From NCBI GenBank assembly GCA_937922745.1, contig CALAJO010000056.1, positions 1 to 40,006 on the forward strand: DNA of 40,006 nucleotides, read 5' to 3'. Made by a program: the position numbers and the translations under genes. Below, one piece after another: positions 6,640-31,839 of the stretch (its first letter is position 1; the number at the start of each line of letters is the position of its first letter). The notes beneath the pieces are model-generated. The model ran no database searches, was not told the DNA's origin, and was given only the letters and a program-made list of their open reading frames with translations. The stretch comes from an uncultured cyanobacterium. Its GTDB lineage: Bacteria; Cyanobacteriota; Vampirovibrionia; Vampirovibrionales; JAGQHJ01.

Positions 6640-7065
6640 ATGAGGATCGGACCCCCTTCCCCTGTTCGCTTTGGCAAAGTGTATATATTAGAGGCGCAAA
6701 GCCAGATGCGCGGCGAAGGCCAAATCGAGCGAACAATACGTCTTCAGTTGGAGGATGACCCAGACCATCCCCATCGCAAACAAGCTGAACAGATTTTTGG
6801 CGAAGTGGCAAGGCCGTTGACCTTGGAAGAAGAGTACCATGGGCAAACAAAGCCAGGATATATTGTTGCGATAACTGAAAATTCATTCGGGCCGCGATTT
6901 AGGGTAGAGTTTTTAAAGGGTGGCAATGGCCGGCCCCAAGATAGTGTCAGCCAAGAGGGCGGGGCATTCCTAAAACAGCTGCTCGGCGCGTGTGGCGATA
7001 TGTTGCCCATGGTGAAGCAATGGGGGGAGAAGGCAATAAACTATCTTCAACAGCAAGGTGAGTGA
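6640..7065 (+). CDS. Hypothetical protein with N-terminal VRFGK motif
   Basis: A 141-residue protein of unknown family. It starts MRIGPPSPVRFGKVYILEA, without a signal peptide. The N-terminus carries the short aromatic-Gly motif seen in several proteins of this window (see findings). A mixed charged region, an EEEYHGQTKPGYIVAI segment and a C-terminal helix (QLLGACGDMLPMVKQWGEKA) follow. The ATG at 6640 is preferred over the adjacent TTG because GAAGGA lies 8 bases upstream. It is a single gene between two oppositely organised units. Confidence 0.65.
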   Translation: MRIGPPSPVRFGKVYILEAQSQMRGEGQIERTIRLQLEDDPDHPHRKQAEQIFGEVARPLTLEEEYHGQTKPGYIVAITENSFGPRFRVEFLKGGNGRPQDSVSQEGGAFLKQLLGACGDMLPMVKQWGEKAINYLQQQGE

Positions 7066-7117
7066 GAGAAGGCGTGTTAGGGCTTAATCTTCTTTTTCAT
7101 CCCTAAAACAAGTGCTA

Positions 7118-7153
7118 CTTCGGCTCAGATCATTTACAATAAAGCCGAAGGAG
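7118..7153 (+). promoter_or_regulatory. Stem-loop overlapping the Shine-Dalgarno of the cytochrome gene
   Basis: CTTCGGCT (7118-7125) pairs with AGCCGAAG (7143-7150) across a 17-base loop. The second arm contains the first part of GAAGGAG (7147-7153), the only Shine-Dalgarno before the ATG at 7168. A TACAAT hexamer inside the loop could instead be a -10 element, in which case the hairpin would not be transcribed. Confidence 0.35.
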
Positions 7154-7167
7154 TCCGTTCGGTTCTG

Positions 7168-8067
7168 ATGAAGAAAAAAGGTCTTATCGCCTTTATTATT
7201 GTGTCCATCCTCATTGTGGGGGCGGTCTGGTATAGGCTGTACCAGCAAAACCAAACCCCGGTAATCGTCTCCAGGACCGATCCACCCAAAATTAGCTCCG
7301 ACAGCCAGGTACACGAGCTGGGACAGGTTACCGAAGGCAGTGAAGTGCCTTATGTAGTTAAAATTCAGAATATGGGCGGCGAACCGCTCATTATTCAAAA
7401 AGTCCAGACCAGTTGCTGCTCCGTCATCAACCTGAAGACCAAGTACATCGAACCCGGCAAGGCTGGCGAACTGGAAGTGGTATTTGACACCAAGGGGAAG
7501 AAGGGGCATACCCAAAAATCCATCAAGATTTTTTCCAACGACCCGGATCAGCCCAAATATACCCTTTACATTGCCGCCAATGTCATTCCCCAACCGGAAG
7601 AAAAACCCCAGGCCACTGAGAAGCCCAAGCCCAAAGCCCCCACGGTGCAGGAAAAGCCGCAGCAAGTTTTAACCGTGGTAGATCCCCACGCGGGAATGAC
7701 CGATGAAAAGCGGCGCAAGATTTTTATCGGCAATTGCGGCACCTGCCATGCCCAGATGGGGCGCGGTAAAATGGGCGCGGAGCTGTTCCAGGCGGATTGC
7801 GCCATGTGCCACGGCAACCAGGCCCAAGGCGGCATCGGCCCGGCGCTGGTTCCGGGGAATTATTCCGACCCGGCTTATTTAAACCATATTAACCGCGTCA
7901 TTCGCTTTGGCAGCGATACCAGCGAATCCATGCCCGGTTTTATCACGGATATCGGCGGCCCCTTAACCGAAGGGGAAGTTCAATCCATTGTGCAGTACTT
8001 GCAAAGCCAAAGTGAGAACCAATTATCACCCCAGCCTTATTCGTCCTCTCCAAATAGTTCGAATTGA
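7168..8067 (+). CDS. Membrane-anchored DUF1573-cytochrome c fusion protein
   Basis: A 299-residue protein with an N-terminal membrane anchor (about 5-24). A DUF1573 immunoglobulin-like domain (about 45-140, HELGQVTEGSEVPYVVKIQN, TSCCSV at 81-86) follows, then a Pro/Lys linker (141-170) and a cytochrome c domain (about 175-283). Two haem-attachment motifs are present only 21 residues apart: CGTCH at 190-194 and CAMCH at 211-215. A likely axial Met255 lies in ESMPGF. It should face the periplasm and carry electrons; the partner oxidase or reductase is not in the window. The tail overlaps the convergent 8037 gene by 31 bases. The Shine-Dalgarno GAAGGAG is 14 bases from the ATG, longer than usual. 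Confidence 0.88.
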   Translation: MKKKGLIAFIIVSILIVGAVWYRLYQQNQTPVIVSRTDPPKISSDSQVHELGQVTEGSEVPYVVKIQNMGGEPLIIQKVQTSCCSVINLKTKYIEPGKAGELEVVFDTKGKKGHTQKSIKIFSNDPDQPKYTLYIAANVIPQPEEKPQATEKPKPKAPTVQEKPQQVLTVVDPHAGMTDEKRRKIFIGNCGTCHAQMGRGKMGAELFQADCAMCHGNQAQGGIGPALVPGNYSDPAYLNHINRVIRFGSDTSESMPGFITDIGGPLTEGEVQSIVQYLQSQSENQLSPQPYSSSPNSSN

Positions 8068-9251
8068 GCAGTATTGTCGATAAGCCTCTTCAATAATTCA
8101 TTCCATTTTCCATCACCCACATGATGAAGCAGGTGACTCAGGACATTCGTTTCCGCAAAGGCATCAGGGATATCCCGACTGGGCGTTCTGCCGCACATTT
8201 GATGCAGCAGCAGCATTAAGCCGGTTGATGCGGTTACCATTGTCTCGGTATTTTGGGAATCTTCCGAAAGCAGATTGGGAACCTGTTCGAGACATTGCAG
8301 GATGGGGGCGGCAAACTGACGTGTCTTATCCTGAAGCATACGCTTGTTGCAATGCTCCATATAGAGTGTGGTTGCCTGGTTAAAAGCCATGAGCATATGA
8401 TAAATATCTTCGGATGCGTCTGTATTGGAGAACTGCCTGGCTTTTGCCAGCTTAAAGTGCATAATGCCTAAGTCAACGGCGTGTTGGTAACGCTCCACCT
8501 TGGGATAAAATTGCTGGGATATCGACAAGCCGCGTTTATAAGCATCTATCGCTTGCGCCGATAACGCGCGTTGTTTCTCCAACTCTTTTGTCTTCTCAGC
8601 TTCTTTATACCAGTAATCCCCTTCTGTCACTGCAAGCTTAACCGGGTTATCACTTCCTTTATGGTGGGTTAAGTTGAGCTTGCTAACGGAAACCTCCAGC
8701 GTGTGATGGATATCTTGGATAACACGATATACTTCTCTAACCCGACTTAAATAACCTGGTTGATTGGGACTGATAAACGGAATGGTATTGGCCAGGCAAT
8801 GGAGCATGGTGTACCCTGCATATTGTGCGCCAACGGTATCCGTTGAGGTTTTGCCCCTGATGTAAGCAGGAAATGCTTGTGAAAAAGAATGAACAAGGCG
8901 ATCAAAACCTAGAAGATTTAAAGGTTGATTCATCATCCTTTGCACATAAAGCATCTTATAGGCAGTTGTGCCCACCTGGAGTTGTTGCTCGAAAGAATGA
9001 TTGGCATTGAATGGGGTATACAGATCGGACAACGCCTCTGTGGCAATAGAATATTTCCTCAACCGGATTGCGGCATCCGCCAGTTTTTGCAGTTCGTACC
9101 ACCTTTCCTGGGCAGTCAGCACCTTTTTACCCGAAAATCGCGTTGCCTGGAAGGTATCAGAGTGCAACGGACAGGCTTTTAAACCATGCTGCGAAGAAGC
9201 CCAGTAGGGTGGCTTGGGCTGGAATATAAGTGGAAAAGCACTTATTCGCAT
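8037..9251 (-). CDS. Helical-repeat hypothetical protein, paralogue of the 9349-10572 gene
   Basis: A 404-residue, mostly helical protein (TPR-like periodicity, for example ERWYELQKLADAAIRLRKYS and QQFYPKVERYQHAVDLGIMH). The N-terminal 50 residues are unstructured and contain TFQATRFSGKK. No signal peptide or catalytic motif is seen. It is 97 bases downstream of a paralogue of the same length and helix order. An upstream GTG (9269) is in frame; the ATG at 9251 is preferred because it gives an MRI-type start as in neighbouring genes, but the ribosome site is weak for both. Function unknown. Confidence 0.65.
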   Translation of the reverse strand: MRISAFPLIFQPKPPYWASSQHGLKACPLHSDTFQATRFSGKKVLTAQERWYELQKLADAAIRLRKYSIATEALSDLYTPFNANHSFEQQLQVGTTAYKMLYVQRMMNQPLNLLGFDRLVHSFSQAFPAYIRGKTSTDTVGAQYAGYTMLHCLANTIPFISPNQPGYLSRVREVYRVIQDIHHTLEVSVSKLNLTHHKGSDNPVKLAVTEGDYWYKEAEKTKELEKQRALSAQAIDAYKRGLSISQQFYPKVERYQHAVDLGIMHFKLAKARQFSNTDASEDIYHMLMAFNQATTLYMEHCNKRMLQDKTRQFAAPILQCLEQVPNLLSEDSQNTETMVTASTGLMLLLHQMCGRTPSRDIPDAFAETNVLSHLLHHVGDGKWNELLKRLIDNTAQFELFGEDE

Positions 9252-9348
9252 TTCATATCGTCTCGTCACAAGTACACGGTTAAATTAATGCACTCAAGCT
9301 TTAAAATTGCTCTCAGAAAAACGCCAATGATAGAAAAACAAAGCGAGA

Positions 9349-10572
9349 TTAATAACCAAGCGAACGCATCTTTTTACTAAGTTGATTGACTTGCTGGAAA
9401 ATACCATCGTTATCCGTCTCGGAAATTTGGTAATCCTCATCGTCCAGCATCGGCAGGGTCGGATCCTTTAAACCTTGAAGCCGGAAGGTCAATTGCAGCA
9501 TCAGGCAGGCCGCGCCAAACAGATCTTTGTTCTCATCTGTTGTTACAATGGGCATTCCTAATGTCTTAACCAGGTTGTACATTATTGGGAGCGTAAACTT
9601 TTCGGCCTTTTCACCATCCCAGAAGAAACCCCTCTGCTGCTCCGCTAAATGCACATCAAGCGCCTGGGTAAAGGATTGCAGCATTTTAACGATTTGAGGG
9701 CGCACATTATAAGGTTCCCGACCCCATCCATCATAAGCGTCGGAAAGCGCATCGGCGTGATACCAGGAGATAATACCCAAATTCGCAAACTGCCCAGCCG
9801 TTCTTGGCGGGTAATACTTTTCAATGGTTTGCACCAGTTCGCCATACTTTTGGGCCGCCTCCGTGAAATTAAAGTTTAGGCCTTCGATTTCGTCCAACAT
9901 TTTGCGGATAATATGCGTCTTCTCGACCCGGCCGACCAAGTGAACGCCTTGACGTAACCTGGCAGTCCGATCATCAGACAAACGAAATTCACCAATAATA
10001 CTATAAAGCGATTTCGTTTCCTTTGGCGCTAAAGCACGGGCCAGTGGAAAACATTGCGTAACAGACAATAACATGGTGCTTAAATGGTCACGCGGATTCC
10101 CTAAATGTTTAATTTTCTCTGAGTAATTTCGATGGGGCTCACCCCCCATCAGGAGAAGCGGCCGTATAAAACGGCTATCGCGCATTGCAGGCCCAACCAT
10201 TTCCGTTAAATACCGGGTGTGCCCCATTTTAACCAGTCTGGCCATTGCGTACATCTGCTTATAGTAGCCGCTTACCCGCCTCTTATACTCTTCAGCAGTA
10301 TGAAGGTTTTCTCCAAGTAATTCATCGGCTTCTTCAAGATGTTTTAAAGCCCCTTCATAATCCCCGGCGTGTCGGCCCAGTTTTAGCTGTCGGTCTGCTA
10401 TCTCCGTTAAGAGAACAACTTGATCCCATTTGCTGAGTTGGCCGTTTCCAAACCGTGTCCTTGTAAAGCAATCGACTGATGTCGCCGCCATAGGTTGTGG
10501 AGAAAGTGGCTTTGTGCGCAACAAAGCGCTAGGATGCAATCTGATAGTGGGATAAACTGCCTTGACGAGCAT
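9349..10572 (-). CDS. Helical-repeat hypothetical protein, paralogue of the 8037-9251 gene
   Basis: A 407-residue helical protein. Corresponding segments in the two paralogues include EKYYPPRTAGQFANLGIISW against QQFYPKVERYQHAVDLGIMH. QIVKMLQSFTQALDVHLAEQ matches DIYHMLMAFNQATTLYMEHC, and ACLMLQLTFRLQGLKDP matches TGLMLLLHQMCGRTPS. The N-terminus contains CFTRTRFGNGQ, matching the TRF-(S)G motif of the partner. TPR-like helices (residues 50-130) suggest a protein-interaction scaffold. It is probably co-transcribed with the downstream paralogue. Function unknown. Confidence 0.65.
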   Translation of the reverse strand: MLVKAVYPTIRLHPSALLRTKPLSPQPMAATSVDCFTRTRFGNGQLSKWDQVVLLTEIADRQLKLGRHAGDYEGALKHLEEADELLGENLHTAEEYKRRVSGYYKQMYAMARLVKMGHTRYLTEMVGPAMRDSRFIRPLLLMGGEPHRNYSEKIKHLGNPRDHLSTMLLSVTQCFPLARALAPKETKSLYSIIGEFRLSDDRTARLRQGVHLVGRVEKTHIIRKMLDEIEGLNFNFTEAAQKYGELVQTIEKYYPPRTAGQFANLGIISWYHADALSDAYDGWGREPYNVRPQIVKMLQSFTQALDVHLAEQQRGFFWDGEKAEKFTLPIMYNLVKTLGMPIVTTDENKDLFGAACLMLQLTFRLQGLKDPTLPMLDDEDYQISETDNDGIFQQVNQLSKKMRSLGY

Positions 10573-10718
10573 TATTAGAACCCATATTGCCTAAGATAAA
10601 CCAATTAACACAGCTCAATCCTTGGAATTGCGTAAGTCGGCAGATCCGGATATATGCAGGTTATATCTGGATTTTAGCCAAATTGGCTTCGTTCGTACTT
10701 TTTTTCGCAAATGCGCGG

Positions 10719-26894: not shown

Positions 26895-28520
26895 TTATGC
26901 TCTGCTCAGCCCTCCAAAGATGGATTGGATAGCCTGCACCAGGATCTGGCTCAACATTGCCATAAACTGTTGATTTGAGCCAAGACCGGTTGCATTTGCC
27001 ACAGCGTTACCGGCAGTTCCGGCTACGGCATTGGCTGCGCCACCACCATATCCACCTGCTGATCCGGCTGTACCTGCGTTGCCAGCAGCAGTCGCCATGT
27101 TAAGGGCGTTAATGCCGCCGCCTCCGCCGCCGCCTTTATTATTACCGGCGTTGCCTGCGTTGCCTGCGTTACCAGCGTTGCCTGCATTACCTGCATTTCC
27201 GGCGTTACCGGCGTTGCCTGCGTTACCAGCGTTGCCTGCATTACCAGCATTTCCAGCGTTACCGGCTTTACCTGAGTTTCCGGCGTTGCCTGCGTTACCA
27301 GCGTTGCCTGCATTACCTGCGTTATTGTTGGCCTTTTCGATATTACTTCCTAAGTCGCCACGGGTAACGGTAGAAATGGCTCTATCATACTTATCTTTAT
27401 CCTTAACGGACTTGCCGCCAAGCATATCCTTACCATCTGCACCGAAGACCTGGTTCAACTGCAAGGTGCCTCGCTTCAGCGCAGCTGTTACGGCAGCCAG
27501 GGTTTGCACATCCTTGTCACCAACGCCGCCCTGTTTGGCAAGGTCGCCATTACCGGTTTTTTCAAGCAGTCTCTTCAACTGGCCGTTATCATAGTTACCA
27601 CCTGCGTTCTTAAAGCGGGAAGCAACCAGTGCGAAGGTTGCTGCGCTGGATGCAGCAGGGTTACCGGAGTTCAGGTCGCGATACAGGGTGTTGGAGGCAT
27701 TGTTCATTGCCGTTGCGCTTTCCAAGCGATCACCTGCATAGAACTCAGCCGCATAACCTTCTACAATCCGGGTACGTGCCTGGGCCGTATTGGCGCCACC
27801 AGCACGGATCTTGTCATCGTTGACGTTCCCGTTCTGGTCTACTGCGTCAATATAGGCTTGGAATCCTGCAATGTCGGACTGCCTATTGCGGACGGCTCCG
27901 GCGACATTTTGGCCGCCAAATGTGGTGCCTGCACCACCGGCAGCGCCATAACCGCCACCAGCGTTGCCTGCATTACCAGCATTTCCGGCGTTACCGGCAT
28001 TGCCTGCATTACCAGCTTTGGCTACGCCACCGTATCCACCAGCGTTGCCTGCATTTCCGGCATTTCCAGCATTACCGGCGTTACCAGCATTGCCTGCGTT
28101 GCCAGCATTACCAGCGTTACCGGCATTACCATAACCACCGGCGTTACCAGCATTGCCTGCGTTGCCAGCATTACCAGCGTTACCGGCAACGCCATTGGCA
28201 GCTGTCCCTGCCAGGTTATTAATTTGGCCGGCAGTGCCGTTATTCATTAGCAGCATTGCCATAATGGCCATTGCGAGTACCGACATGGTTTGCATATCAA
28301 GGCCGCCACCGCCAGAACCAACTCGGTTAAAGCTGCTGCCCGAGAAGGTATCCAGTGCCATGGTCGTTGGAGAGGAGCCAAAAAGGCTGCTTCCGCCAAG
28401 CAGGCTAGATGTGCCACCAAGACCGGTTAATGGGCTGGTGACAGGAGCAGACAGGGGACTGATATTAAATGATGATCGATTAAACAGGCTATTGGTGATT
28501 GGGTTGAATGGTAAGCCCAT
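26895..28520 (-). CDS. Large protein with Asn-Ala-Gly triplet repeats
   Basis: A 541-residue protein of no known family. Layout: a Ser/Leu/Gly/Phe-rich N-terminus (1-72) and a Met-rich hydrophobic helix (74-92, DMQTMSVLAMAIMAMLLM). Three blocks of Asn-Ala-Gly follow (114-128 five units, 132-161 ten, 171-188 six), split by GYG. A globular-looking domain spans about 205-395 (QAYIDAVDQNGNVNDDKIRA to AISTVTRGDLGSNIEKAN). A long repeat block of twenty triplets, including one NSG and one KAG, follows at 400-459, then a poly-Gly run. A Gly/Ala segment and a hydrophobic C-terminal helix (FMAMLSQILVQAIQSIFGG) end the protein. No signal peptide is visible. GGAGGA lies upstream of the ATG within a purine-rich leader. 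Confidence 0.85.
   Translation of the reverse strand: MGLPFNPITNSLFNRSSFNISPLSAPVTSPLTGLGGTSSLLGGSSLFGSSPTTMALDTFSGSSFNRVGSGGGGLDMQTMSVLAMAIMAMLLMNNGTAGQINNLAGTAANGVAGNAGNAGNAGNAGNAGGYGNAGNAGNAGNAGNAGNAGNAGNAGNAGNAGGYGGVAKAGNAGNAGNAGNAGNAGNAGGGYGAAGGAGTTFGGQNVAGAVRNRQSDIAGFQAYIDAVDQNGNVNDDKIRAGGANTAQARTRIVEGYAAEFYAGDRLESATAMNNASNTLYRDLNSGNPAASSAATFALVASRFKNAGGNYDNGQLKRLLEKTGNGDLAKQGGVGDKDVQTLAAVTAALKRGTLQLNQVFGADGKDMLGGKSVKDKDKYDRAISTVTRGDLGSNIEKANNNAGNAGNAGNAGNAGNSGKAGNAGNAGNAGNAGNAGNAGNAGNAGNAGNAGNAGNAGNAGNNKGGGGGGGINALNMATAAGNAGTAGSAGGYGGGAANAVAGTAGNAVANATGLGSNQQFMAMLSQILVQAIQSIFGGLSRA
27147..27326 (-). repeat. Triplet-coding tandem repeat, C-terminal block (20 units of 9 bases)
   Basis: Twenty consecutive 9-base units encode Gly-Asn-Ala, with one Gly-Lys-Ala and one Gly-Asn-Ser. 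Synonymous codons vary from unit to unit (Asn AAT/AAC, Ala GCA/GCC/GCT, Gly GGT/GGC/GGA), so the amino-acid pattern is better conserved than the DNA. Confidence 0.9.
27960..28013 (-). repeat. Triplet-coding tandem repeat, 6 units
   Basis: Six 9-base units encode Gly-Asn-Ala (residues 171-188 of the protein), preceded in the protein by one Lys-Ala-Gly variant. Confidence 0.85.
28041..28130 (-). repeat. Triplet-coding tandem repeat, 10 units
   Basis: Ten 9-base units encode Gly-Asn-Ala (residues 132-161 of the protein), flanked by Gly-Tyr-Gly on both sides. Confidence 0.85.
28140..28184 (-). repeat. Triplet-coding tandem repeat, 5 units
   Basis: Five 9-base units encode Gly-Asn-Ala (residues 114-128 of the protein), directly after a Gly-Val-Ala variant unit. 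Confidence 0.85.
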
Positions 28521-29348
28521 CTTCTCTATCCTCCTAACTTACTTCTCTTGTTTTCTCTTCTCAAAAAACTGATTAATTAAAAATTGGAAATTAAAAACGA
28601 ACCCTGATAAGTGGGTTCAGAGGCATCCCGGTTAAAAACAGACATGCCAAAAGCCAGATAAACCAATGGAGATACGGCATTGACTTATCTGTTGAAAGTT
28701 GTGTATTTCGTGCTTCTCTCTCATGTGTTCTCTTCTCTCTCTCCGATTAAAAAGTTTCTACTGGCTTTGGGTTATCCTACTTAACGCGTCTGCTTCTAAG
28801 CGTTACTCTCATCACTCTCTTCTTACATAGGCTCTTCTCTCCAATTTCTAATAATAAAACACGTATAATTAAATAAACAATTCATAAATCCAAAATTGCT
28901 TCATTATTACAAAGCTGTTACATCAAATTTTGAATGATGCCTTAACTCCCAATCGTTACAGGGCATTCCAATTAATCCAGGGGAAGTTGAGACAAAAGTA
29001 AAAATGTGAATCTACGCGGCTATTTGGTGCTGGGCTCAGCAGTCGTAAAATTTTTTGCCTTCATTTCCATTCCTTATATATAGGGAGAAGACCTCTTAAT
29101 AATTTCTTTCTTTTTAATCAGCAGAATTAATGCGGGCATTTGTTTTTTATCGCTCATTTAAATAATCGAAAAATGCAGGAAGCAGGACACTTTTTGAGCT
29201 TTTAACAACATAGAATTGTCACGAAATGTAACAACCTATAGCCATCAAAGCAATTTACCCAGCCAAGATGTTTTTTTTAATAATACATATAATTTAAGCG
29301 AATCGACTTTTTAACGAACGAGAGAAGAGAAGGTTTAATAGAGAGAAG
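28521..29348. promoter_or_regulatory. 828-base divergent control region of the glycine-rich pair
   Basis: No gene is present. On the minus strand a TTGTTT (28875-28880) / TATTAT (28851-28856) pair with an 18-base spacer could start a leader of about 330 bases. That leader holds several GAGAGAAGAG-type purine runs (28520-28560, 28712-28744, 28788-28842 as complementary TC runs) and a terminator-like hairpin. On the plus strand TATAAT at 29288-29293 precedes the 29349 gene, with GAGAGAAGAGAAGG and GAGAGAAG just before the ATG. The middle part (28860-29280) is AT-rich. Confidence 0.55.
28587..28618 (-). terminator. Terminator-like hairpin inside the leader of the repeat gene
   Basis: GAACCC (28599-28604) pairs with GGGTTC (28613-28618). 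On the minus strand GTTTTTAATTT follows, which is the form of an intrinsic terminator or attenuator about 70 bases before the repeat-protein start. On the plus strand no T run follows. Confidence 0.5.
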
Positions 29349-30776
29349 ATGAATTTCATTACGTCTTTTAATCCGCTCATATCCACACAGGCACGTACCA
29401 TGCCTGCCATTTCCTCTCGTCAGGATATAGCAGCGCCTTCGGCCTTTAACCTGGGCGGATCCTTTTCTCAACCAGCCAATACAAGTTTTGCACTGGGTGG
29501 TGGTTTTTCCAACCAACCGTCCATGACGAACATGCTGCAACAAATTTTGCAAATGGTGTTAATGGAATTCCTGAAGCAGGCCTTTAGCACCATGGGCGGT
29601 GTGTTCTCCCCTAATGCGAACCCTGCCGTGACAGGTACAACAGGTAACGCTGGAACGGGCGCTACTGGTGGAACAATTGGCACTGCTGGTAACACTGGTA
29701 CTGCGGGTGGCGCAACGGGTGGCTATGGCTCCGTTGGTAATAACACCGGCGGCACAACCCCGGCAGGTGGAACCAACACTGGAACTGCAACCAATGCAAC
29801 ACCTATTAACAACAATACCGATTTTAGACAATTAAATACACAACAACGCACCAACCTAAGTGGCCTAAGCGATAGAGAGCGCGCTGTCCTTCACCTTTGG
29901 GGACGCCAGATGGCCGCTAAAGGCCATCAGGATGGCGGTATCCAGTTAACCGTACTGGAAGGCGCACAGCAAGGCGGCAGTAATTCCGTCATCATCAACC
30001 AGGCCGAGCTGGACTTGGTTAACGAACTGAATGCGAAAGACCAGGCCGAATTCGGCGGCATTACCGGCCGTAACCTGGATCGTGAATACTTCAAGGTCTT
30101 CCAAAAAATTACCGGCAAAGATATTTCCCAGCGTTATTCCAACGCCCCTGTTCGCTTTGCGACCGGCCCCGCCAAATTGCCTGAGCAATTTGCAGTGGAT
30201 TCCCCCGAGTGGGAAGCGGCAATGGAGCGCCAGAACGGCTTGAGCCGCTTTGATAACGCCGTGCTGCGTCTGTGGGGTCACCAACCGCTATTTAACGGCG
30301 GTAAAATCGATGGCTCCATCCTGGCCTACACTTTGGAAAGCAACAATTCCCTGGACAGAGGGATGAATAAAGCCGATGTGCGCTCCCTGCTGGAGTCGGA
30401 TCTGGCTGCGGACGGCATCGTTAACGGAGACTCCCTGGAGACTTCCTTCCTGGATACGATGGACAGATTGTACTTGGGTGGCCCAGGTGCCAGCGCCGAA
30501 AAAACCAGAAATGACGCGCTGAGCAAAGCGGCCAGCCTCGGCAGAACGATGCAGCAAATCGGCCGTGACACGACGCAAGGCGTTCAGGATGCCATCAGCA
30601 ATGTCGGCCAGATGATGAAAGATCATCCCATTATGACCGGCGCCGCCGTTGGCGGTATGGCTGCGGCTGCTGCGATCTGTCCGTTCCTGACCGGGTTGGG
30701 CGTTGGCGCAGCCGGCGTGGGAATGGCCCAAAACCTGATTGAAAACAAGATGGGTAACAAGACCCAAACAGCATAA
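29349..30776 (+). CDS. Large Gly/Thr-rich protein with duplicated module and C-terminal glycine-zipper
   Basis: A 475-residue protein of no known family. Layout: a Ser/Phe/Gly-rich N-terminus (1-58); a hydrophobic helix (MLQQILQMVLMEFLKQAF); a Gly/Thr/Asn-rich linker (about 90-155) with GTAGNTGTAGGATGG. Two related modules follow at about 178-260 and 300-385: RAVLHLWGRQMAAKGHQDGG against NAVLRLWGHQPLFNGGKIDG. The C-terminus is a hydrophobic Gly/Ala stretch (HPIMTGAAVGGMAAAAAICP, then LGVGAAGVGMAQ). No signal peptide is present. It is divergent from the Asn-Ala-Gly repeat gene and shares its helix and low-complexity design. Function unknown; a structural or secreted role is inference. Confidence 0.8.
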   Translation: MNFITSFNPLISTQARTMPAISSRQDIAAPSAFNLGGSFSQPANTSFALGGGFSNQPSMTNMLQQILQMVLMEFLKQAFSTMGGVFSPNANPAVTGTTGNAGTGATGGTIGTAGNTGTAGGATGGYGSVGNNTGGTTPAGGTNTGTATNATPINNNTDFRQLNTQQRTNLSGLSDRERAVLHLWGRQMAAKGHQDGGIQLTVLEGAQQGGSNSVIINQAELDLVNELNAKDQAEFGGITGRNLDREYFKVFQKITGKDISQRYSNAPVRFATGPAKLPEQFAVDSPEWEAAMERQNGLSRFDNAVLRLWGHQPLFNGGKIDGSILAYTLESNNSLDRGMNKADVRSLLESDLAADGIVNGDSLETSFLDTMDRLYLGGPGASAEKTRNDALSKAASLGRTMQQIGRDTTQGVQDAISNVGQMMKDHPIMTGAAVGGMAAAAAICPFLTGLGVGAAGVGMAQNLIENKMGNKTQTA

Positions 30777-31041
30777 CACTTTTTTGTTGCCCCAACGGCG
30801 ACACCAGGTTACACAACACACCCCAACACATTGTCCCTACACAACATCGCCAAACGTACTGTTTATTACGGTATCTTTACGCGTGAGGTTGTGGGGGATT
30901 TTTTCTTTTTAACCGGGTTTACGCGCGCTTTGCCCGGATTTGATGGCGGCTTGATTGCGATGTCATCCTTGAAAATCGGACGGGTTTGCATTAACCATAT
31001 AATTAAAAGTATCAGGATATGGATATAGAGGCTGGTAATCA

Positions 31042-31839
31042 ATGACAAGTGTGCAGGCAGAAATCGGTGTTTTTGGGGGTTCCGGGTTTTATCAGTTTTT
31101 GGAGGACGCTGAAACCGTTCAGGTTGAAACACCCTACGGAATGACGAGTTGCGACATTACCATCGGCACGGTTGCAGGACGCCGCGTTGCGTTTTTACCG
31201 CGCCATGGCTATAACCACAGCATCCCGCCGCATCTCATCAATTACCGCGCCAATGTCTGGGCTTTCAAAAAACTGGGCGTTACCCGCGTCATCAGCCCGT
31301 GCGCTGCCGGCAGCCTTCAAAAATATGTCCGCCCTGGCAGCTTCGTCATCTGCGACCAATATGTGGACAGAACCAACAGCCGCAAGGATACGTTTTACGA
31401 CGGCCCGATTGCCACCCACGTCAGCGCGGCCGACCCTTATTGCCCGGAGATGCGGCAATACGCCATTGACGCGGCTCGCGCCTGCGGCATCGAGCATCAC
31501 CCGGAAGGGACAGTTGTTGTCATCCAGGGGCCGCGCTTCAGCACCCGCGCGGAATCCAACTGGTTTCGCACGCAGGGCTGGGAAGTCATCAACATGACGC
31601 AATATCCGGAAGCCCACCTGGTGAAGGAATTGGAGATGTGCGTGGTCAACGTCTCCCTGATTACCGATTACGACACCGGCATCCCCGGCGTTGAGCCCGT
31701 AAGCCACGAGGAAGTGCTGAAGGTGTTTGCCGATAACAACGAGAAACTCAAAAACCTGCTGTTCAAGCTGATTGAAATTTTGCCGCCCCACCGCGAAAAT
31801 TGTGTATGCGGACAAGTCCTGTCCCATTCCAGAGTATAA
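31042..31839 (+). CDS. mtnP: S-methyl-5'-thioadenosine phosphorylase (PNP/MTAP family)
   Basis: A 265-residue purine nucleoside phosphorylase-fold enzyme (class II). Motifs are EIGVFGGSGFYQFLEDAETV, AFLPRHGYNHSIPPHLINYR (phosphate-binding), SPCAAGSLQKYVRPGSFVI, VVIQGPRFSTRAESNWFR and VINMTQYPEAHLVKELEMC. The Asn-Met-Thr and Pro-Glu pattern fits MTAP-type nucleoside binding. The enzyme cleaves methylthioadenosine from polyamine or AHL synthesis for methionine salvage; activity on other purine nucleosides cannot be excluded. No other mtn genes are in the window. GAGG precedes the ATG, with a TATAAT at 30998-31003. Confidence 0.9.
   Translation: MTSVQAEIGVFGGSGFYQFLEDAETVQVETPYGMTSCDITIGTVAGRRVAFLPRHGYNHSIPPHLINYRANVWAFKKLGVTRVISPCAAGSLQKYVRPGSFVICDQYVDRTNSRKDTFYDGPIATHVSAADPYCPEMRQYAIDAARACGIEHHPEGTVVVIQGPRFSTRAESNWFRTQGWEVINMTQYPEAHLVKELEMCVVNVSLITDYDTGIPGVEPVSHEEVLKVFADNNEKLKNLLFKLIEILPPHRENCVCGQVLSHSRV

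Follow-up and report, generated by a model that had tools for sequence, protein, structure and literature searches.

A duplicated module in a previously unnamed protein

The window, which is the whole stretch of 40,006 nucleotides analysed here, comes from an uncultured cyanobacterium of the order Vampirovibrionales (genome G000), and its GC content of 51.1% is near that of Vampirovibrio chlorellavorus (51.4%; PMC4451040). A complete open reading frame with an ATG start encodes a 475-residue protein, hereafter the module protein, and is arranged divergently to the gene of an Asn-Ala-Gly (NAG) protein (Table 1). The leader of the module protein is rich in Ser, Thr, Asn, Gln and Pro with 3 charged residues among the first 30, and sequence inspection reveals no obvious Sec signal in it. 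The whole protein has 13.5% Gly, one invariant Cys and a pI of 5.7.

Table 1. Features of the module gene, the NAG gene and the region between them (window coordinates)
Feature	Coordinates	Strand	Basis or occurrence
Module protein (475 aa)	29349..30776	+	Complete open reading frame; homologues in 10/18 Vampirovibrionales genomes and one Chromatiales genome
N-terminal leader, residues 1-57	29349..29519	+	Sequence
Met/Gln/Leu hydrophobic helix, residues about 58-83	29520..29597	+	Common to other family members at a similar position
Gly/Thr/Asn-rich linker, residues 88-152	29610..29804	+	Sequence
Module 1, residues 170-258	29856..30122	+	Self-alignment, profile comparison and model; four helices
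Module 2, residues 294-378	30228..30482	+	Self-alignment, profile comparison and model; four helices
C-terminal Gly-zipper hairpin element, residues 410-463, invariant Cys444-Pro	30576..30737	+	Profile match
Divergent intergenic region, 828 bp	28521..29348		Promoter scan, no promoter-like match within
NAG protein (541 aa), proposed partner	26895..28520	-	NAG-domain homologues in 9/18 Vampirovibrionales genomes and the Chromatiales genome
Folded NAG domain between (Gly-Asn-Ala)n tracts	27327..27899	-	Alignment; shares homology with the domain in the module-protein fusions of G009 and G016

The module protein family is previously unnamed, with no name in Pfam, NCBIfam, PHROG or PADLOC. The protein has no Pfam match at E <= 1 and no match among the PADLOC models of anti-phage defence families at E <= 0.1, its folded part (residues 157-475) has no PHROG match, and no NCBIfam model matches a homologue. 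An assignment to anti-phage defence or to a phage protein family was rejected because nothing there matches the protein. The best relatives on record are found in JAHQWC010000027 (Vampirovibrio sp. MAG.114) and JAJCZA010000005 (Vampirovibrionales bacterium OFTM381).

The initial annotation had proposed an internal duplication, which is confirmed both by self-alignment and by profile comparison. Alignment of the two modules gives a BLOSUM62 score of 72, compared with 26.6 +/- 5.1 for shuffled sequences (z 8.9), and none of 5000 shuffles is as good. The second, loosely aligned pair of strings pointed out there lies in the same register as the main alignment. The repeat unit, of about 85-89 residues, is longer than the part quoted at the time. 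Consistently, the same shuffle test gives z 6.9 for the homologue in G016 and z 5.9 for that in G009, and a profile of module 1 (8 sequences) matches a profile of module 2 (9 sequences) with an E value of 1.5e-8 over 80 columns. The paralogue in G000:C160 (locus L002) also has two modules, and the duplication is therefore old, because each of them is closest to its own counterpart in the 475-residue protein. An AF2 model of residues 153-475, built from four sequences, has a pTM of 0.71 and core pLDDT values mostly of 70-94 and shows four helices in each module. No solved or viral structure matches this model at E <= 0.001.

In the model, loops of the form D-G-x-I-x-G lie between the four helices of each module, which recalls the helix-loop-helix pairs of EF-hand and dockerin proteins, and the best PDB sequence matches of the module profile are calmodulins (E 0.45-0.82). 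This raises the possibility of an inner-membrane or cytoplasmic calcium sensor, in which a module would be a pair of EF-hand-like motifs and the C-terminal hairpin an anchor. However, neither an EF-hand nor a dockerin profile of Pfam matches the protein up to E 10, the structural comparison gives no match at E <= 0.001, and the acidic residue at position 12 is missing from the conserved loops. When the loops were scored against shuffles for the calcium ligands D1, D/N3, D/N5, G6, I8 and E/D12, eight of ten modules did no better than the shuffles, and the other two reach p = 0.045 (module 1 of L002) and p = 0.086 (module 2 of L007) before correction for ten tests. Membership in the EF-hand superfamily was rejected on the ligand pattern and the profiles, and a calcium sensor of this kind is very unlikely.

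Duplication is also a classic feature of two-domain heme peroxidases, and a divergent member of that class would be in keeping with the top Foldseek matches in the PDB, which are lignin and manganese peroxidases and KatG, and with the conservation of His182 and His311. However, these matches all have E values >= 0.3 (0.32 upward) and TM-scores of about 0.3, a profile comparison with six KatGs from Vampirovibrionia gives an hhalign probability of 0.3%, and the first His is replaced by Arg in the paralogue L002. A plant-type heme peroxidase was rejected on the profile comparison and this paralogue, and the peroxidase explanation is extremely improbable.

A common front end and a separable C-terminal hairpin

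The architecture that had been described as shared by the module and NAG proteins is borne out, here as a low-charge N-terminus, a Met/Gln/Leu helix and a Gly-rich linker, but it is a property of the family that extends beyond the neighbour. In this common front end, a nearly uncharged leader rich in Ser, Asn, Gln, Thr and Pro is followed by a helix rich in Met, Gln and Leu and then usually by a Gly-rich or (Gly-Asn-Ala)n stretch. At least ten proteins carry it, including one in G000:C29 (317 residues from the first Met), one in G000:C49 (255 residues) and homologues in relatives. The place of the linker is occupied in relatives of the module protein by (Gly-Asn-Ala)n or by a NAG-type domain, and the (Gly-Asn-Ala)n tracts are encoded by many synonymous codons. 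Where one hydrophobic helix had been ascribed to the NAG protein, there are two, placed at the N-terminus and at the extreme C-terminus.

A protein of G013 (locus L016, in the region G013:C12:328332-328748) has the same front end as the module and NAG families and a different C-terminal part: after its Met/Gln/Leu helix and GNA/GTA tract come PTPT repeats and a stretch of the GDPHF type, which looks like a von Willebrand D domain, and Pfam reports only Collagen there. The 255-residue protein of G000 (L072, G000:C49:53477-53712) is a further (Gly-Asn-Ala)n protein, without the NAG domain.

The NAG protein contains 21.6% Gly and no Cys and has a pI of 9.5. Like collagen-like surface proteins (PF01391), it and its relatives have Gly at every third residue of the (Gly-Asn-Ala)n tracts, above the Pfam Collagen cut-off (E 4.6e-11 for the Gly-X-Y tract of the NAG protein). 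Unlike those proteins, the tracts have no proline and no Sec signal is seen, and the linker of the 475-residue module protein is not a regular Gly-X-Y repeat and has no match to Collagen. A structure model of the NAG domain (pLDDT 45) is too poor to use. Long open reading frames run antisense to the repeat tracts (window 27031-27594 and 27504-28250, plus strand) and are probably artefacts of the Gly-Asn-Ala codons.

The Gly-zipper end noted in the initial annotation is present, yet it is a separable element of 54 residues with an invariant Cys-Pro. It occurs in three copies in G000 and in one or two in each of eleven relatives, and it is missing from the module homologue of the Chromatiales genome. 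The hairpin is also found on short proteins that are otherwise unlike the module protein, at G000:C63:12550-12708 (minus strand), at G000:C25:44443-44604 (plus strand), in G001:C94 and in G015:C6; it reads as a mobile membrane-like tail. CPFLG, the core motif of the hairpin, stands at residue 227 of the Chromatiales module protein, inside the Gly-rich linker.

Distribution of the two genes and transfer as a pair

Among 18 Vampirovibrionales genomes, eight have both genes, two have the module gene with no detected NAG domain (G006 and G010), one has the NAG domain with no detected module gene (G003) and seven have neither, and this co-occurrence has a p value of 0.0076 in a one-sided Fisher test that does not correct for relatedness. 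Two genomes, G009 and G016, encode the module protein as a fusion, preceded by a homologue of the NAG domain (hhalign E 3.8e-16) that belongs to the paralogue for which G000:C29 is the representative. The module region and the NAG domain themselves showed no homology to each other.

Within the order, the two genes are adjacent only in G000. They lie 212 kb apart in G012 and 185 kb apart in G014, on different contigs in G013, and on C5 against C18 and C28 in G009. The NAG locus of G003, a genome of the same family as G000, is syntenic with the window, with the same zinc-ribbon and other genes alongside, and the module gene either arrived beside the NAG locus in G000 or was lost in G003. A promoter scan of 28400-31050 gave one match, at 28438-28466 inside the NAG gene, where 3.5 are expected by chance, and a pair of promoters in the divergent region was rejected. 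The proposal that the divergent arrangement reflects shared control is thus not upheld, since adjacency is not conserved in the order, the NAG locus of G003 stands without a detected module gene and no promoter-like site exceeds chance in the stretch scanned.

Members of the module protein family were found in the order Vampirovibrionales and, outside it, only in one Chromatiales bacterium (G058, Gammaproteobacteria), which comes from Bugula neritina. No further carrier was detected among the 386 genomes of a sample from the phylum of the window, and none among 368 other genomes sampled from the class of G058. Searches of viral contigs, phages and plasmids gave no module protein, and those of plasmids no NAG domain, and a phage or plasmid origin was rejected.

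Homologues of both genes stand in tandem on the Chromatiales contig MDLA01000180 (locus L052), the NAG homologue at 7027-9018 and the module homologue at 9233-10642, with 214 bp between them, and no second copy of either was found in the 7.4 Mb genome. The flanking genes are gammaproteobacterial; an adjacent crotonase has orthologues with 61-69% identity in relatives of G058. Contamination was rejected on these orthologues and on the uniform GC of the contig. Because the sole copies lie in tandem between gammaproteobacterial genes, the two genes were transferred together. Trees place the transferred copies, with weak support, close to G009 and among those of Vampirovibrionales. This position makes a transfer outward from Vampirovibrionales most likely, and adjacency may have arisen once, so that the adjacencies in G058 and G000 need not be independent.

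Upstream of the transferred pair, at a distance of 59 bp, lies a TPR-like gene of 192 codons (L052:6389-6967), which matches no naming profile. No profile or PDB match supports it as a type III chaperone.

The idea that the two genes stay adjacent in relatives thus fails in most Vampirovibrionales and holds in the Chromatiales genome. The two could be unrelated low-complexity proteins that became neighbours by accident, given the lack of adjacency in G009, G012, G013 and G014, the syntenic NAG gene of G003 with no module gene detected in that genome and the lack of homology between the folded domains. However, the single-copy tandem pair in a gammaproteobacterium, the fusion with a NAG-domain paralogue and the co-occurrence (p = 0.008) argue against chance neighbourhood, which is rather improbable. 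The same three observations support the earlier suggestion that the module and NAG proteins may work together, and they probably do so as a pair, because the two genes are side by side also in an unrelated marine gammaproteobacterium. The evidence for partnership is therefore stronger than the initial annotation had it and that for shared control weaker, so that its proposal is partly supported. An anonymous open reading frame thereby becomes a member of a family that is defined by its architecture and has a testable partner, and the transfer of precisely this gene pair across phyla suggests that the two proteins function together.

A putative exported two-protein device

The module protein may be one half of a two-protein device specific to the Vampirovibrionales lineage, which would be exported and self-assembling and would be displayed at the cell surface or at a site of cell-cell contact; we give this reading a probability of roughly 40%. 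The leader would direct export by a route other than Sec, and the candidate apparatus for it is of the flagellar or type III kind. Oligomerisation would be driven by the Met/Gln/Leu helix and the Gly-X-Y tracts would make up a stalk, with the NAG domain and the duplicated module as heads that interact with each other or bind a target. Most Vampirovibrionales copies would also have a membrane anchor in their C-terminal hairpin, and this anchor appears dispensable because the transferred copy has no hairpin.

An attachment pad "of unknown composition" has been described in V. chlorellavorus (Soo et al. 2015, PMC4451040). That the module and NAG proteins are structural parts of a Vampirovibrionales contact organelle, which in V. 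chlorellavorus would be this pad, exported by a non-Sec apparatus derived from the flagellum and with a two-gene core passed on to a marine gammaproteobacterium, is quite improbable as a whole. If the pair is exported to a contact site, it would offer a molecular entry point to the attachment of the alga-killing Vampirovibrio.

Soluble Gly-rich helper proteins such as the harpins of plant-associated bacteria, which leave the cell through a flagellar-type or injectisome type III apparatus and help to breach the envelope of a target, resemble the family in kind (traits from PMC6945534). The uncharged leader, the Gly-rich tracts and linkers, the short hydrophobic helices and the lack of Cys in most members are alike, and both host lineages have more than one FlhA/SctV. 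However, the folded domains are larger here, there is no sequence match and no harpin match in Pfam, and the two genes lie outside export clusters. The Gly-rich, Cys-free composition of harpins is found in the NAG protein and not in the module protein, with its modest Gly content and invariant Cys, and of the two pI values, 5.7 for the module protein and 9.5 for the NAG protein, the latter is basic. Harpin-like helpers are possible, if unlikely.

As for the exporter that a device of two surface proteins would need, FlhA-type genes were found in all 18 genomes of the order searched, nearly all of which have two full-length copies (G010 has one, and G002 one plus fragments), and G058 carries FlhA and a true injectisome SctV. 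Export apparatuses occur in every genome of the order searched and thus do not track the module and NAG genes, so that their presence is a matter of consistency with the device only. A second flagellum-like cluster with rod genes, FliE, FliF, FliH and FlhA is seen at L057 (G000:C157), L059 (G016:C105) and L061 (G009:C22). The FlhA of this cluster in G000 reaches neither the FlhA nor the SctV cut-off, and the cluster could be a distinct export apparatus.
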